Shown here in pieces: positions 5,294 to 13,143 of a DNA stretch of 51,979 nucleotides (position 1 is the first letter of the stretch; every line of letters starts with the position of its first letter). The DNA comes from Ilumatobacteraceae bacterium. GTDB taxonomy: Bacteria > Actinomycetota > Acidimicrobiia > Acidimicrobiales > Ilumatobacteraceae. A program made the translations under genes and the position numbers. The DNA is taken from the NCBI GenBank assembly GCA_030729045.1, contig JANQYF010000040.1:1-51979 (forward strand), given 5' to 3'. The notes beneath the pieces were generated by a model. The model was not told the origin of the DNA and did not search any database. It was given only the letters and a program-made list of their open reading frames with translations.

Positions 5294-5409
5294 GGTTGGT
5301 AATTCTGTCGTACAAAGAGCCAATTCCGCACATTGAACGAATGTGTCTGTTTACACACCGTTCACAGGGGGCAGACAGGCAGGAAAAACAAGCTCCGTAC
5401 CATTCGGAC

Positions 5410-5694
5410 ATGGACCAATCTGCCCATCACAATCAGAAGGACGTGGTTCTCTCGGAGACCGATAGGGCGATACTGAAGGTTCTTGCAGATTCTCGTGACC
5501 GTGTCGTGAGCCGCGATTCTCTTCTGAGGCTCGCAGGATTGGACAACGTTTCTGCCAGACGGGCAGATTCCTCATTGGTCGTCTTGAGAAAACTTCTCGG
5601 GTCAGAAAACCTCATTACGGTGCGTCGTAGAGGATGGATGCTGTCCAATGAAGCACACATTGTGGCCGCAAAACTGTTGTCCTCCGACACATAA
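5410..5694 (+). CDS. stand-alone winged-helix DNA-binding protein (OmpR/PhoB effector type)
   Basis: 94 residues from the ATG at 5410; the frame extends up to 5296 but that part lies opposite the start of the acyl-CoA dehydrogenase and looks non-coding. Residues 10-80 match the Trans_reg_C winged helix: a D-R-A-I-L-K-V-L-A-D helix, V-V-S-R-D-S-L, a recognition helix with A-R-R-A-D-S-S-L-V-V-L-R-K-L-L, and the wing L-I-T-V-R-R-R-G-W-M-L. There is no receiver domain and no kinase next to it. It ends 38 bases before the antiporter-GlnD gene on the same strand and could regulate it; that is inference from position only. Confidence 0.7.
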   Translation: MDQSAHHNQKDVVLSETDRAILKVLADSRDRVVSRDSLLRLAGLDNVSARRADSSLVVLRKLLGSENLITVRRRGWMLSNEAHIVAAKLLSSDT

Positions 5695-5732: not shown

Positions 5733-8390
5733 GTGAATGCAGCCCTACTAGCCTCCGGGGGCGCAATTGACTACGGCTCAATTTTCACAGATCTTGCAAT
5801 CATTCTCATCATTGCGAAAATTGCGGCCGAACTATTTGAACGCATTCGAGTTCCTGCCGTGTTGGGCGAAATCATTGCAGGCATCGTCATCGGACCATCG
5901 ATGCTCGGACTCATCGACCCTAGCGATGCAATGCGCATCTTGGCTGAAGTAGGCGTCATCATTCTGCTAGCCGAAGTTGGTCTGGAAATGGACCTTACCG
6001 AACTTAGAAAAGTCGGGCGCGCTTCAATACTCGTTGCCATCATCGGCGTCGTGGTCCCCATGTCGTCTGGTGTCTTAGCTGGCACAGTCCTTGGTGAATC
6101 ACTCAATGCATCGCTGTTCCTCGGTGCGGCACTCGCGGCCACCAGCGTGGGTATCACTGCTCGAGTGTTCGGAGACCTAAAGGCTCTCTCGTCTACTGAA
6201 GCACGCATCGTTCTTGGAGCGGCTGTAGCCGATGACGTTTTTGGCCTCATTATTCTCACGGTCGTCACCCGAATTGTGCAACAAGGTTCAATCGACCTAG
6301 TTGGCGTGGCAAGCACCATTGGTATCGCTGTTGGTTTCATTGCCGTTGCCGGCGCCATCGGAATTTTGGTTGTTCCCCGCCTATTCGCGATCATTGGTGA
6401 ACGCACAGTTTCGCCTGCCACTATCGGGGTTCTCGCAGCTGGCTTAACTTTCGGATTCTCCGCAGCTGCCAGTGGTGCACAACTTGCACCAATTATTGGT
6501 GCGTTCATCGCCGGCACTGCGTTGTCTCGCACACCTCAACATGACCGAATTTCGAGAGACTTTAAATCACTTGGTGCCATCTTTATTCCGGTCTTCTTCT
6601 TGCAAATCGGTATTGACACTGACGTCACCAAGTTCTTCGCAGGGCATGTTCTATTCGTCGCTGCGATTCTCACCATCATTGCTATCTTCGGAAAAGTGGT
6701 GGCTGCTCTCGGAGCACGAGGCGCAAATGCCGACAAGTTATTGATCGGCATCGGCATGATTCCGCGTGGCGAAGTTGGGCTGATCTTTGCATCAATCGGA
6801 GTGGCCGTCGGAGTATTTGATGACGAGTTGTATGCAGTTGTGTTGCTAGTTGTTCTACTGACAACTGTTATTACCCCGCCACTACTTCGCTGGCGTATCG
6901 AACACGCTCAAGATTCCGCTACCACAATCGATTCAACCCTCATTACCGAAGAACCGACTGGTGGTTGGCTTGTCATCAATAACGATGAAGTACAACTTCA
7001 AGGTAACCCACCACCATCATTAGTGCTATCGCTTGGCCTACAGACATCATTACTTACATCCCATGCTCAACCAAACGATGTGTTGCTTGATTGGGTGCAC
7101 GCAAACCGTTCGGTTGAGTTGACGTGGGACCTTGCGACTTCGCAGTTGCTGTACGAAGTGTTAGTTCGCGGAAATGCACGCTCGTGGAGATTCTTAGAAG
7201 TGAGCAATATCGTTGAACGTGCATTGCCTGAAATAGATAAAGCGATTCGAGCTCGTCGAGGAGATGCGACTGAACTTGACCCAACACATTCGGTGCAAAT
7301 GCCAACGGTTGAAGCACTGAGAGAACGAGTTGGTCGAAATTCATTTGCGGATTCAGCAATTTTGTTTGCTGCATTTATTCTTGATTTTTCAGATGACAGT
7401 CCAGCTATTGGAATAATGAATCGCTTGGTTTTCCCGGAGAGTGTTTCACAACAAATTCGTGCCCTGGTTGCAGCAAGTGCGCTTTTGCACACAGCGGTTG
7501 CATCTGAGCCAATAGAAAACAACACACGGAACATGGCCCAGTTGGCTGACTTCCTCGGCTCTCCACTGATGGTTGAACAGTGCCGAATGCTGACAGAAGC
7601 TCGTGGCAACCTTGAAGACTGGCAGTATCCGAAATTGCTAGACATTACGACGCGCGTTCAGGAACTTCTCGCACATCCAGAACTCATTGAAGGCATCGAA
7701 GGCTCCATTGAATCTGTGCGCCGAAGCAAAGCAACGTCTCTTGCTTCCGACCCGCAAGTTCTCGACCGCTTGCGAAACGCGGCTCCTGCATACATTCTTG
7801 CCCACGAACCAGAAACCTTGGTACGTCACGCAACACTGGTGGAACCTGCGCCAGGTTCAGGCAAAGTTCGAGTCAGTGTTGAGAGTGCGCAGCAAAATGG
7901 CCAATGGACAATCAACATCGCAACACACGACATGAGAGGACTTCTCGCACGTATGTGTGCAGTGCTCGCCGAATGTGGCCTAGAAATTGTCAGTGCTGAC
8001 CTCGCCACTTGGCCAGACAAAGCTGTCCTCGACTCATTCGTTGTGAATTCTGCACAAGAACCGAATGCCGTGCAGATCGCAACTGAGTTAGAGAATCGCT
8101 TGAGGCACAGGCTCGATGCGCCGAGACTCAGTAAGCCACAATCTCGTCTTACCATCAGTCTTGATAACGACGCTCATCCGTGGCACAGCGTGATTCGAGT
8201 TACCGGAGCCGATCAACCCGGACTAGTGCAAACTGTTGCAACAGCATTTGCAAAAGCCAAAACAAATGTCCACCATGCTCATATCTCAACGCAGGGCGAT
8301 GACGTTTCTGACCGATTTGAAGTCTCGACACGGCACGGGCGCAAGTTAGGCCCACAAGCTCTACAACGCATCACCAAACTCCTGTCCTAG
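5733..8390 (+). CDS. CPA2 cation/proton antiporter fused to GlnD-like regulatory region (degenerate HD plus two ACT domains)
   Basis: 885 residues. Residues about 15-385 form the 12-13 helix Na+(K+)/H+ exchanger domain of the CPA2/Kef group (I-R-V-P-A-V-L-G-E-I-I-A-G near the start; S-V-G-I-T-A-R-V-F; G-M-I-P-R-G-E-V-G-L-I). No TrkA-N domain follows. Instead residues about 410-700 resemble the central part of the PII uridylyltransferase GlnD: S-W-R-F-L-E near 483, A-L-P-E-I-D, D-P-T-H-S-V near 515. The HD motif (normally L-L-H-D-I-G-K) is replaced by F-I-L-D-F-S-D-D near 547, so hydrolase activity is probably lost. Two ACT domains follow (about 725-785 and 815-885), the glutamine-sensing tail of GlnD. 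The nucleotidyltransferase domain is absent, its place taken by the transporter. It precedes the glnK-amt cluster, suggesting ion exchange gated by glutamine or another amino acid. Function is inference. Confidence 0.82.
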   Translation: MNAALLASGGAIDYGSIFTDLAIILIIAKIAAELFERIRVPAVLGEIIAGIVIGPSMLGLIDPSDAMRILAEVGVIILLAEVGLEMDLTELRKVGRASILVAIIGVVVPMSSGVLAGTVLGESLNASLFLGAALAATSVGITARVFGDLKALSSTEARIVLGAAVADDVFGLIILTVVTRIVQQGSIDLVGVASTIGIAVGFIAVAGAIGILVVPRLFAIIGERTVSPATIGVLAAGLTFGFSAAASGAQLAPIIGAFIAGTALSRTPQHDRISRDFKSLGAIFIPVFFLQIGIDTDVTKFFAGHVLFVAAILTIIAIFGKVVAALGARGANADKLLIGIGMIPRGEVGLIFASIGVAVGVFDDELYAVVLLVVLLTTVITPPLLRWRIEHAQDSATTIDSTLITEEPTGGWLVINNDEVQLQGNPPPSLVLSLGLQTSLLTSHAQPNDVLLDWVHANRSVELTWDLATSQLLYEVLVRGNARSWRFLEVSNIVERALPEIDKAIRARRGDATELDPTHSVQMPTVEALRERVGRNSFADSAILFAAFILDFSDDSPAIGIMNRLVFPESVSQQIRALVAASALLHTAVASEPIENNTRNMAQLADFLGSPLMVEQCRMLTEARGNLEDWQYPKLLDITTRVQELLAHPELIEGIEGSIESVRRSKATSLASDPQVLDRLRNAAPAYILAHEPETLVRHATLVEPAPGSGKVRVSVESAQQNGQWTINIATHDMRGLLARMCAVLAECGLEIVSADLATWPDKAVLDSFVVNSAQEPNAVQIATELENRLRHRLDAPRLSKPQSRLTISLDNDAHPWHSVIRVTGADQPGLVQTVATAFAKAKTNVHHAHISTQGDDVSDRFEVSTRHGRKLGPQALQRITKLLS

Positions 8391-8467: not shown

Positions 8468-10154
<1,687 letters not shown>

Positions 10155-10213: not shown

Positions 10214-10216
10214 ATT

Positions 10217-10252
10217 GTCACGCCTTTCACTAAAGCGAAACATTGCCGAAAC
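10217..10252 (+). promoter_or_regulatory. possible GlnR-like binding repeats upstream of second amt
   Basis: The sequence TTCAC-N6-GAAAC-N6-GAAAC occupies 10226-10252, with a further GTCAC at 10217-10221. The 5-base elements with 6-base spacers resemble the actinobacterial GlnR box (GTnAC-N6-GAAAC repeated). It lies about 50 bases before the amt start at 10302, where a nitrogen regulator would be expected. The match is imperfect (TTCAC rather than GTnAC) and whether this organism has GlnR is unknown. Confidence 0.35.
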
Positions 10253-10301
10253 AAGTGTTTTCTACCATCGGTTTCAATTATTTAACGTCAGAGGGGACGC
10301 A

Positions 10302-11549
10302 ATGTACGCAGCAACTATCGACCAGGGTGCAACAGCGTGGGTTCTTATATCCATTGCTCTCGTAGCATTCATGACACCAGGGCTTGCCTTTTTCTACGGC
10401 GGCATGGTGCGAGCAAAAAACGTTTTGGGAATGCTCATGCAAAATATCTTTGCAATGGGACTCATCAGCGTGATCTGGGCAACTGTCGGATTCAGTTTGG
10501 CGTTCGGCGGTACGGGCAAGTACATCGGCAACTTTGATTTTGCACTGATGAAAGACCTCGCAACCATTGAGAGTCTTCCTGGATACACAGGCGACTTTGC
10601 TCTGGTTATCCCAGTACTCGCCTTCTTCGCATTTCAGATGATGTTCGCGGTGATTACGCCAGCGCTCATTACTGGCGCTACTGCAGATCGTTTGAAGTTT
10701 TCTGCGTATGCAATTCTCATTGCTGTGTGGGCCATTGTTGTCTACCCAACGGTTGCTCGTTGGGTGTTCAGCCCTAACGGCTGGTTGTTCCAACGTGGCG
10801 CACTTGACTTCGCTGGCGGTGCAGTAGTGCACATCAATGCTGGCGCAGCAGCGCTTGCGGTAATTCTTGTGTTGGGTAACCGTAAAGGATGGCCACGCGA
10901 AGCAATGCCGCCGCACAATCTTCCGTTCACTGTTCTCGGAACTGGAATTTTGTGGTTCGGCTGGTTTGGATTCAATGCCGGTTCTGCACTTGCAGCAAAC
11001 GGTCTTTCAGCACAAGCATTGGTGAACACGCACTTGGCCGCAGCCTCTGCCATGTTGGCCTGGCTGCTTGTTGAAAAACTACGTGCCGGTCATGCCACCA
11101 CCCTGGGTGCTGCTTCGGGTGCAGTCGCAGGCCTTGTGGCCATTACTCCATGTGCCGGATTCGTCGGAGGTATGGCCCCTATCTTCATTGGCCTCATTGC
11201 TGGCGTTGTCTGCTACCTCGCACTTACTTTGAAGACTCGATTCAACTTCGACGACAGCCTCGATGTCATTGCAGTGCACCTTGTCGGCGGAATTATCGGA
11301 GCACTACTTCTCGGTTTCTTCTCAGATACGAAAATCAACTCACTCGGCTTTGACGGCGTGCTCTTTGGTGGTGGTTCCAAGCTGTTGGTCAACCAACTCA
11401 TCGCCATTGGTGCCACTTTTGCCTTCTCATTCATCGTCACGTGGGTGGTAGCAAAGATCCTTGATGCCACAATCGGGCTGCGCGTCAGCACAGAAGACGA
11501 ACTCGTTGGTCTTGATCAAAGCCAACATGCCGAATCGGCGTACCAGTAA
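10302..11549 (+). CDS. amt: ammonium transporter Amt (second copy)
   Basis: 415 residues from the ATG at 10302, chosen because GAGGGG (10291-10296) precedes it; the upstream frame to 10215 lacks membrane-protein character. Helix 1 has F-M-T-P-G-L-A-F-F-Y-G-G-M-V-R, the classic AmtB form, and the two pore His are in A-V-V-H-I-N-A-G and I-A-V-H-L-V-G-G. It differs clearly from the first copy (whose helix 1 has Q-A-G-F-A-L-V-E-A-G), so the pair is not a recent duplication. The PII gene glnK2 follows 39 bases later. It imports ammonium under control of PII. Confidence 0.94.
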   Translation: MYAATIDQGATAWVLISIALVAFMTPGLAFFYGGMVRAKNVLGMLMQNIFAMGLISVIWATVGFSLAFGGTGKYIGNFDFALMKDLATIESLPGYTGDFALVIPVLAFFAFQMMFAVITPALITGATADRLKFSAYAILIAVWAIVVYPTVARWVFSPNGWLFQRGALDFAGGAVVHINAGAAALAVILVLGNRKGWPREAMPPHNLPFTVLGTGILWFGWFGFNAGSALAANGLSAQALVNTHLAAASAMLAWLLVEKLRAGHATTLGAASGAVAGLVAITPCAGFVGGMAPIFIGLIAGVVCYLALTLKTRFNFDDSLDVIAVHLVGGIIGALLLGFFSDTKINSLGFDGVLFGGGSKLLVNQLIAIGATFAFSFIVTWVVAKILDATIGLRVSTEDELVGLDQSQHAESAYQ

Positions 11550-11552
11550 TGA

Positions 11553-11927
<375 letters not shown>

Positions 11928-11943: not shown

Positions 11944-13143
11944 ATGACAATGACGGCAGACACCCCCGCAAAAGCACCTCGCTGGACAGCTCAATGGAAA
12001 GAACTCTACGAAGAGGTCATTCAGACTGGACTGTGCACCGGATGCGCCGGATGCGTTGTTACGTGCCCACACGATGTCATTGGATACGAACATGAAGAGG
12101 GCAAATACGTTCCTTTTCATATCGAAGAAGAACTTGGCCTCGATAATTGCATTCACGGTGAAAAAGGTTGCACAACTTGCACCCGTGCATGCCCACGATT
12201 CCGTAAGTGGGAAGAATCTGCAGACATGCATTTGTTTGGCCGCACACGTGAACCAGACGAGATGTCAGGTATCTGGCGCCAACTACTTCTCACTCGTGCG
12301 GTAGACACCGAAGAGCACACAAAAGGGCAAGACGGTGGATTCGTTTCAGCCATGTTGATCTGGCTTCTCAAGAATGACTACATCGATGGTGCACTCGTCA
12401 GCGGTGTCGAAGAAGACGACAAGTGGAAAGCAAAGCCTGCTGTTGTTACTAATCGCGAAGAAGTACTAGCGACCGCTGGTAGCCGTTACACATACTGCGC
12501 AAACCCTCTCGCATTGCCAGAAGCAAAAGAAAAGGGCTTGTCACGTCTCGCGCTTGTGGGTATGGGATGCCAGACATCGTCTCCCCCAGTGATGTGGGAT
12601 CGTAAGGCCGGAAAAGTTTCGAAGCCATTCCTTTTCAATATTGGACTTCTGTGCTCTAAAACTTTTGACGATGCAATCTTTCCTGAACTCTTCGAGGCCA
12701 AGTACGGCCTCAAAAAAGAAGACATGGTGAAGATGAACATCAAAGGCGCGTTCCAAATCTGGATGAAAGATGGTTCATTTCACGAAATTGATTTGAAGGA
12801 ATGCCACGGCTGGACACGTACCGGTTGCAAGAACTGTCCGGACTTTGCTGCAGAGCATTCAGACATCGCTACTGGCGGTATTGGTAAAGACAACGACTGG
12901 ACACTCACCATCGTTCGCACCGCACTTGGTGAAGAAGTCATTAATCGCATGATCGCTGACAATGTCATCATCGCTCGCCCTGCACAAGAAGACGAAGTAG
13001 CGATGAAACTTCTTCGCACATTGTCAATTGTGAGTCGTCGCCGTTGGCCAGACTGGGCAGAAACATCTGTCAAAGTCGGAACACCAGCCGTAAAGAAAAA
13101 AGCTGAGCCTGCTGCTGATGCAGCACCAAAGCCTGCCGAATAA
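11944..13143 (+). CDS. coenzyme F420 hydrogenase/dehydrogenase beta subunit (FrhB) family protein
   Basis: 399 residues. Two ferredoxin-like Cys groups lie near the N-terminus: C-T-G-C-A-G-C-V-V-T-C-P (from about residue 31) and C-T-T-C-T-R-A-C-P (about 76-84), each fit for a 4Fe-4S cluster. The remainder is the FrhB/FdhB fold (Q-D-G-G-F-V-S-A near 120; A-G-S-R-Y-T-Y; G-M-G-C-Q-T; G-C-K-N-C-P-D-F), which binds FAD and in known members passes electrons between F420 or ferredoxin and a partner. The last 25 residues are Lys/Ala/Pro-rich and probably disordered. It sits just after amt-glnK; a role in nitrogen assimilation redox chemistry is conceivable but unproven. Confidence 0.85.
   Translation: MTMTADTPAKAPRWTAQWKELYEEVIQTGLCTGCAGCVVTCPHDVIGYEHEEGKYVPFHIEEELGLDNCIHGEKGCTTCTRACPRFRKWEESADMHLFGRTREPDEMSGIWRQLLLTRAVDTEEHTKGQDGGFVSAMLIWLLKNDYIDGALVSGVEEDDKWKAKPAVVTNREEVLATAGSRYTYCANPLALPEAKEKGLSRLALVGMGCQTSSPPVMWDRKAGKVSKPFLFNIGLLCSKTFDDAIFPELFEAKYGLKKEDMVKMNIKGAFQIWMKDGSFHEIDLKECHGWTRTGCKNCPDFAAEHSDIATGGIGKDNDWTLTIVRTALGEEVINRMIADNVIIARPAQEDEVAMKLLRTLSIVSRRRWPDWAETSVKVGTPAVKKKAEPAADAAPKPAE

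Follow-up and report, generated by a model that had tools for sequence, protein, structure and literature searches.

Why should a membrane antiporter carry the regulatory half of a nitrogen-sensing enzyme? The question is raised by a gene located next to ammonium-transport genes in an Ilumatobacteraceae genome (assembly GCA_030729045.1); the window referred to below is the whole 51,979-nucleotide stretch of contig JANQYF010000040.1 that was analysed. The gene joins a NapA-type antiporter of the CPA2 family to the C-terminal part of GlnD, and we consider it probable that its product exchanges cations for H+ electrogenically under the control of a GlnD module that is catalytically dead and would sense an amino acid without modifying PII. 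The fusion gene and its parts are as follows.

5733..8390, + strand: fusion gene, NapA-type antiporter plus GlnD-like sensor lacking the nucleotidyltransferase (885 amino acids, intact open reading frame, GTG start)
5772..6893, + strand: NapA-like transmembrane domain, residues 14-387 (PF00999 match; fold match to NapA 5bz2)
6231..6236, + strand: codons of Asp167-Asp168, the DD pair of electrogenic CPA2 antiporters (alignment with the NapA DD pair)
6693..6695, + strand: codon of Lys321, motif position 8, the lysine of transmembrane helix 10 (alignment with the NapA lysine)
6894..6965, + strand: linker, residues 388-411 (predicted local distance difference test score, pLDDT, below 50 at residues 394-405; antiporter-only relatives in the genus end here)
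6966..7685, + strand: GlnD-like helical body and HD-like region, residues 412-651 (hhalign with GlnD; 3wfq fold match)
7368..7397, + strand: site of the lost HD motif, residues 546-555, A-A-F-I-L-D-F-S-D-D (fusion alignment)
7866..8102, + strand: ACT domain 1, about residues 712-790 (Pfam; model of the C-terminal half, 9hv0 fold match)
8151..8387, + strand: ACT domain 2, about residues 807-885 (PF01842 at 820-883; ACT folds of aspartokinase and PGDH)

The membrane half belongs to the CPA2 exchangers, as the first-pass annotation of this DNA had claimed. PF00999 matched residues 24-385 (E 2.4e-62, 211 bits against a gathering score of 26.2) and was present in all 18 members searched with Pfam. 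The nearest solved structure was Thermus NapA (E 2.6e-64; KefC, 5.4e-11), and the membrane part of a full-length model (24 rows, mean pLDDT 76.9) was superposed on NapA 5bz2 with Z 50.0 and a root-mean-square deviation (rmsd) of 2.5 over 381 aligned residues. The CPA2 subfamily model TIGR00932, the best NCBIfam match, scored 167.7 bits, below its cut-off of 238.3, so the assignment to NapA-like CPA2 proteins rests on PF00999, the NapA similarity and the fold. The window protein carries the electrogenic-type CPA2 motif as given in PMC6181914, in which positions 6 and 7 are acidic and position 8 is lysine. Asp167-Asp168 and Lys321 aligned with the NapA residues, and Asp-Asp-Lys was found in 75/75 aligned antiporter domains, in which the stretch in transmembrane helix 4 was ATSVG (70), ATSIG (4) or ATSVA (1) and thus NapA-like. 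The likeness to Thermus thermophilus NapA (4bwz, 5bz2; CPA2, NapA-I clade) extends over the whole membrane domain at 36% identity and includes the DD pair, the lysine at motif position 8 and this stretch, whereas the matched NapA chains stop after the membrane domain and the fusion adds a GlnD-derived module of ~470 residues.

These transport residues favour putative Na+/H+ exchange over Kef-like K+ transport. The first-pass annotation had proposed NH4+ or K+ as the substrate, and this is the weaker half of its reading because the residues match those of the Na+/H+ antiporter NapA. A corresponding alternative, built on the analogy with AmhT, is that the protein would be an NH4+ (or K+)/H+ antiporter exporting surplus ammonium imported by Amt. 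The ion selectivity of antiporters is hard to predict from sequence, which counts for this alternative, as does the amt neighbourhood described below; against it stand residues of the electrogenic NapA type, not Kef-like, and ten relatives located away from amt, and we regard it as improbable.

A C-terminal regulatory domain on a CPA2 antiporter is in itself not new. KefC, KefB and YbaL are CPA2 antiporters bearing a C-terminal KTN/RCK ligand-binding domain and, as far as family knowledge goes, share with the fusion a cytosolic C-terminal ligand-binding module. The fusion protein differs in having no KTN/RCK Pfam match and a sensor of other descent, and the Kef models scored far under their NCBIfam cut-offs (KefB 60.8/804 bits, KefC 54.3/752 and YbaL 86.5/700). 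USP or RCK domains at the C-terminus were considered and rejected for the window protein, which had no Pfam match of either kind.

The sensor half is derived from GlnD, and this is visible by sequence, profile and fold. The alignment of 23 fusion C-terminal halves (the window protein and 22 relatives) was compared by hhalign with 10 GlnDs of the same order, which gave probability 100 and E 1.9e-42 over 444 columns; the GlnD-side range was model columns 320-810, so the homology begins at column 320. The distant fusions G037, G039, G044, G047 and G053 matched TIGR01693 from position 336-370 onward in HMMER searches, and a profile of 20 C-terminal halves (19 fused, 1 stand-alone) retrieved long GlnD-like frames in the sample of the phylum. 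In the window protein the NCBIfam GlnD models covered residues 680-882 only (TIGR01693, 3.3e-24, 85.2 bits against a cut-off of 519.4), and Pfam searches of this protein and 18 members (19 families listed) gave no model of the GlnD middle or HD domain, so that the middle part is detectable only by profile comparison. PF01842 matched two stretches, the best at 820-883, and a plant ACT-like model matched 714-786 narrowly below its cut-off (25.7 vs 27.6 bits).

The fold was examined with an AlphaFold2 model of the C-terminal half (14 rows, mean pLDDT 80.3, predicted template modelling score, pTM, 0.53). By VIA-align, model positions 9-254 matched the region that follows the catalytic part in a tRNA nucleotidyltransferase (3wfq), with Z 15.3, barely above the usual best Z of 14 for mostly helical models (rmsd 3.9, 231 aligned). 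Positions 266-392 matched 9hv0, the large glutamate dehydrogenase, with Z 12.5 over 126 aligned residues (rmsd 2.3), and positions 406-488 resembled the ACT domains of aspartokinase and PGDH. No solved GlnD was among the matched rows, and the nucleotidyltransferase-like fold is one that we take, from family knowledge, to be that of GlnD. These domain-wise rows were used instead of plain Foldseek, which ranked whole-length aspartokinase rows first with a TM value of about 0.1. A PDB profile search with the C-terminal half gave only 6 weak ACT matches, and a search of a plasmid collection gave 4 records, none reaching 80% query coverage (2 annotated as uridylyltransferase, 2 without a listed gene). 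The profile comparison, the fusion alignment, Pfam and the predicted model bore out the claims of a GlnD middle region with its HD motif lost and of two terminal ACT domains. Plant ACR proteins are ACT-repeat proteins similar to GlnD and, as far as family descriptions go, are alike in these repeats; we know of no ACR protein attached to a transporter.

What separates the fused half from GlnD (TIGR01693), with which it shares the helical body, the HD-like region and two ACT domains, is the loss of both active sites, the junction with a transporter and the placement in a clade of its own. The H-D pair was missing in 23/23 aligned fusions, the column reading x-D in 22 and x-E in G053. Since the ten order-level GlnDs (L112-L121) had been chosen by an HDxGK-type pattern, only 24 later rows inform on the motif, and 23 of these carried HDxGK (L283 did not). 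The nucleotidyltransferase domain is absent, the N-terminus being occupied by the NapA domain. Both GlnD active sites are lost in the fusions, and an active GlnD was rejected on these two grounds.

The inactive half is under purifying selection. Across the antiporter, the HD-like and the ACT part, the ratio of nonsynonymous to synonymous substitution (dN/dS) was 0.03-0.12 (7 genomes, pairs with estimable synonymous change, many dS values being near or past saturation), and in each of them it was 0.04-0.09 when the window was compared with four close relatives. Residues invariant in the sensor half of 18 fusions include R483-S484-W485, W760, D762, P816 and W817; these RSW, W-x-D and PW signatures were not seen in the GlnD row of the profile alignment.

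Comparison with complete GlnDs further shows that the fused halves are a lineage apart. In a 55-row tree (quick search, no bootstrap), 21 fusion-type halves, 19 fused and 2 stand-alone (G102:C20 and G039:C54), formed one clade against 34 GlnDs, with an SH-like approximate likelihood ratio test (SH-aLRT) value of 100. A separate full GlnD, a point left for checking by the first-pass annotation, was present above the curated cut-off in 45/61 genomes searched (own genome counted), several of them also fusion-bearing. The window's own genome, which is 80% complete, had no further TIGR01693 match except an ACT-region fragment; given this completeness and the 45/61 genomes, the idea that the fusion replaces the host's GlnD is unsupported. 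In three loci (G732, G757 and G531), GlnD nucleotidyltransferase and C-terminal-half matches were located within ~6 kb of the fusion. Stand-alone GlnD-like proteins without the nucleotidyltransferase, in the same clade as the fused half, were observed at L187:8530-9942 (-) and L158:6844-8256 (-), the latter ~3 kb from amt and PII genes; no HDxGK was found within the frame of stand-alone G039:C54.

Acidimicrobiia and a second actinobacterial class both contain fusions. The genome-wide scan detects close relatives only, and the profile searches were confined to actinobacterial samples. In the phylum sample, 24/396 genomes matched at 1e-60, with full-length fusions in the window's family (G000, G036 and G246) and in the other class (G085 and G100, 2 of the 5 genomes sampled there). 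In the class sample, 80/395 genomes matched, among them 24 full-coverage fusions, the remainder being mostly antiporter-only; G592 and G461 carried the fusion as two pieces in one frame, and in G033 and G519 it was split over contigs. Full-length orthologues in so many genomes exclude misassembly or chance as the source of the fusion. A second fusion copy in G018 (L159), divergent and interrupted with a left flank resembling that of the first, is a strain variant or a decaying duplicate. Two public contigs titled as Bifidobacterium breve metagenome-assembled genomes (L044 and L045) carry an 89-90% identical antiporter, and their titles look wrong.

In a 75-row antiporter tree (45 full, 25 antiporter-only, 5 HD-like only), all 45 full forms fell within one 61-row clade (SH-aLRT 98). 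The three states require at least 12 changes on this tree, and the starred branches force 8 for full forms versus the rest; the simplest reading of the tree would be one gain followed by many losses of the sensor half, on a topology that does not distinguish gain from loss, has several long unsure branches and places the named outgroup on one side of no branch (2 rows on the wrong side). Three of the forms scored full (G466, G598 and G528) have one stop in the matched region, the antiporter frame of G528 breaking ahead of the sensor half, and G519b was scored as full and sensor-bearing because of a match that lies ahead of the antiporter and probably belongs to a distinct gene, the sensor half of G519b itself seemingly being on another contig (L236, amt ~0.3 kb away). 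Antiporter-only forms ending at the linker were found in G020, G005/G023/G026, G012, G021/G022 and G010; the antiporter of G020 is 95% identical to that of the window, with the sensor half absent. The ACT domains alone were lost in G508, G522 and G585, whose tails matched the sensor profile at 1e-48 or better and in which no ACT was found. G684 and G678, without ACT domains and labelled HD-only by eye ahead of the tail-match check, gave modest tail matches (E 1.8e-7 and 1.2e-6, small set), and Pfam found only PF00999 in G684.

Repeated loss of the whole half or of its ACT domains on the tree is what would be expected if the GlnD half were a relic, a passenger being lost and without a regulatory role. 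However, dN/dS was 0.04-0.11 in the HD-like and 0.03-0.12 in the ACT part where estimable, and fusions were kept across two classes at 25-40% identity with the invariant residues retained, which makes a relic very improbable. Antiporters that have lost the whole sensor keep their transport residues intact, which fits its being a regulatory module.

The reading that we prefer can be set out as follows. The membrane half would perform electrogenic monovalent-cation/H+ antiport in the manner of NapA, most probably exchanging Na+ for 2 H+. The sensor would be a GlnD minus its nucleotidyltransferase and HD active site, retaining the helical body and an ACT pair that binds an amino acid reporting nitrogen supply, either glutamine as in GlnD or another. 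A ligand-induced change would be relayed by the inactive HD body, and then by the short linker, to the membrane domain, where exchange would be raised or lowered. The cell would in this way match its Na+ and its internal pH to the import of ammonium and the synthesis of amino acids, with PII not covalently modified. The ion, its direction, the ligand and the gating itself are here inferred, gating by an amino acid being kept from the first-pass annotation as the most natural reading. GlnD senses glutamine according to PMC4285133. Glutamine would be the default ligand by descent, and the leucine gene cluster described below makes another amino acid possible. Several points weigh against this reading. 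The full-length model had a pTM of 0.44, and its placement of the sensor relative to the membrane domain is unreliable. Gating cannot be essential, since several lineages do without the sensor, and some lineages keep the HD-like part without ACT domains, an arrangement that is left unexplained if the module senses through its ACT domains alone. Finally, the 3wfq match exceeds the usual Z so slightly that the GlnD claim for the HD region rests on the sequence profile.

The surroundings of the fusion gene bear on both the ligand and the partner of the sensor. The neighbouring genes in the window are as follows.

5296..5694, + strand: orphan OmpR-type winged-helix gene upstream of the fusion (PF00486, 6.4e-6, 26.6 bits vs 26.2)
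8537..8893, + strand: PII gene glnK1 (PF00543, 2.6e-32)
8883..10154, + strand: ammonium transporter gene amt1 (PF00909, 2.4e-123)
10215..11549, + strand: second ammonium transporter gene amt2 (PF00909, 1.6e-121)
11589..11927, + strand: second PII gene glnK2 (PF00543, 6.7e-33)

We compared 52 sensor-bearing loci, which include the second copy G018:C72, the ACT-less G508, G522 and G585 and contig-edge loci, and exclude sensor halves without an antiporter match (L149, L236, L158 and L187). An amt gene was located within 1 kb in 34 of them, the observation that counts for ammonium export. Ten others lie in a leucine/branched-chain biosynthesis cluster: 8 have leuC within 1.4 kb, in G466 the cluster is more distant, and in G546 the locus, with leuB and ilvE beside it, sits at the end of a contig. 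The remaining 8 fall in neither context: G013, G060 and G519b at contig edges, G007 and G033 with glnK but no full amt match, and G036, G047 and G585 with neither amt nor leu genes in the fetched flanks. The association with amt and glnK noted in the first-pass annotation therefore stands, while a tie specific to ammonium is weakened by the ten leucine loci. Among the 29 rows without a sensor match, amt was within ~1 kb in 12 and leuC within 110 bp in 3 (G482, G464 and G476); the 14 rows outside the fusion clade comprised 10 with neither, 3 with leuC and 1 with amt (G070).

The leucine loci (L217, L219, L220, L221, L224, L225, L226, L228, L229 and L231, all Acidimicrobiia) comprise leuA, leuD-leuC, winged-helix, fusion, leuB, ilvE, cimA and serA genes, the set being incomplete in some fetched stretches, and NCBIfam searches of example loci confirmed leuA, leuC, leuB, ilvE, cimA, leuD and serA. 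All ten fell in one 12-row clade of the tree, which also contained G531 (amt) and G519. Antiporter-only relatives without a GlnD half were also observed ~100 bp from leuC-leuD in three genomes of ~1 Mb (L247, L248 and L249; f111). Many loci of both the amt and the leu context have an OmpR-type winged-helix gene ahead of the antiporter, a possible local regulator.

The main rival to amino-acid gating is that the dead HD body docks GlnK and couples antiport to the state of PII, the ACT domains being secondary. The glnK gene adjoins the fusion in most fetched loci of the window's family, PII is the only known substrate of GlnD according to PMC4285133, and G684, G678, G585, G508 and G522 keep an HD-like part without ACT domains. 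By contrast, glnK was found in 0/10 leucine loci within the fetched flanks, and the ACT part was more conserved than the HD-like region in 20/21 genome pairs and equal in 1; we consider PII docking unlikely. The same paper places actinobacterial glnD in an amtB-glnK-glnD operon, which offers a possible source of the fused half and a non-functional reason for its proximity to these genes.

Taking both contexts together, we tentatively propose, at chances that we judge a little short of even, a class of amino-acid-gated electrogenic antiporters in which a dead GlnD-derived sensor, fused or stand-alone, would sense glutamine or a branched-chain amino acid and tie Na+/pH homeostasis to the supply of nitrogen, the connection running to ammonium uptake or to leucine synthesis depending on the lineage. 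The first-pass annotation had remarked that it knew of no account of such a fusion, and no description of a GlnD/ACT-antiporter fusion was found in the portion of the open-access PubMed Central literature covered; beside the known Kef arrangement, the GlnD-derived sensor is new as far as could be found. If amino-acid gating is correct, nitrogen status would have a direct molecular link to ion and pH homeostasis, a GlnD sensor would have been turned to a use other than PII modification, and the supply of amino acids may directly adjust the balance of ions and pH. Close relatives, with their antiporter-only, ACT-less and full forms, offer a natural series of deletions, through which ACT sensing of the GlnD type and its control of a partner domain could be addressed by a transport readout.

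Two further observations concern the genes downstream of the fusion. The position of amt1 (8883-10154) is occupied by two distant kinds of Amt: in G009 the neighbours are 85-98% identical to those of the window, and the Amt is just 43% identical. A gene resembling the FrhB-type beta subunit of F420 hydrogenase (11944-13143 in the window) follows the amt/glnK cluster in many relatives.

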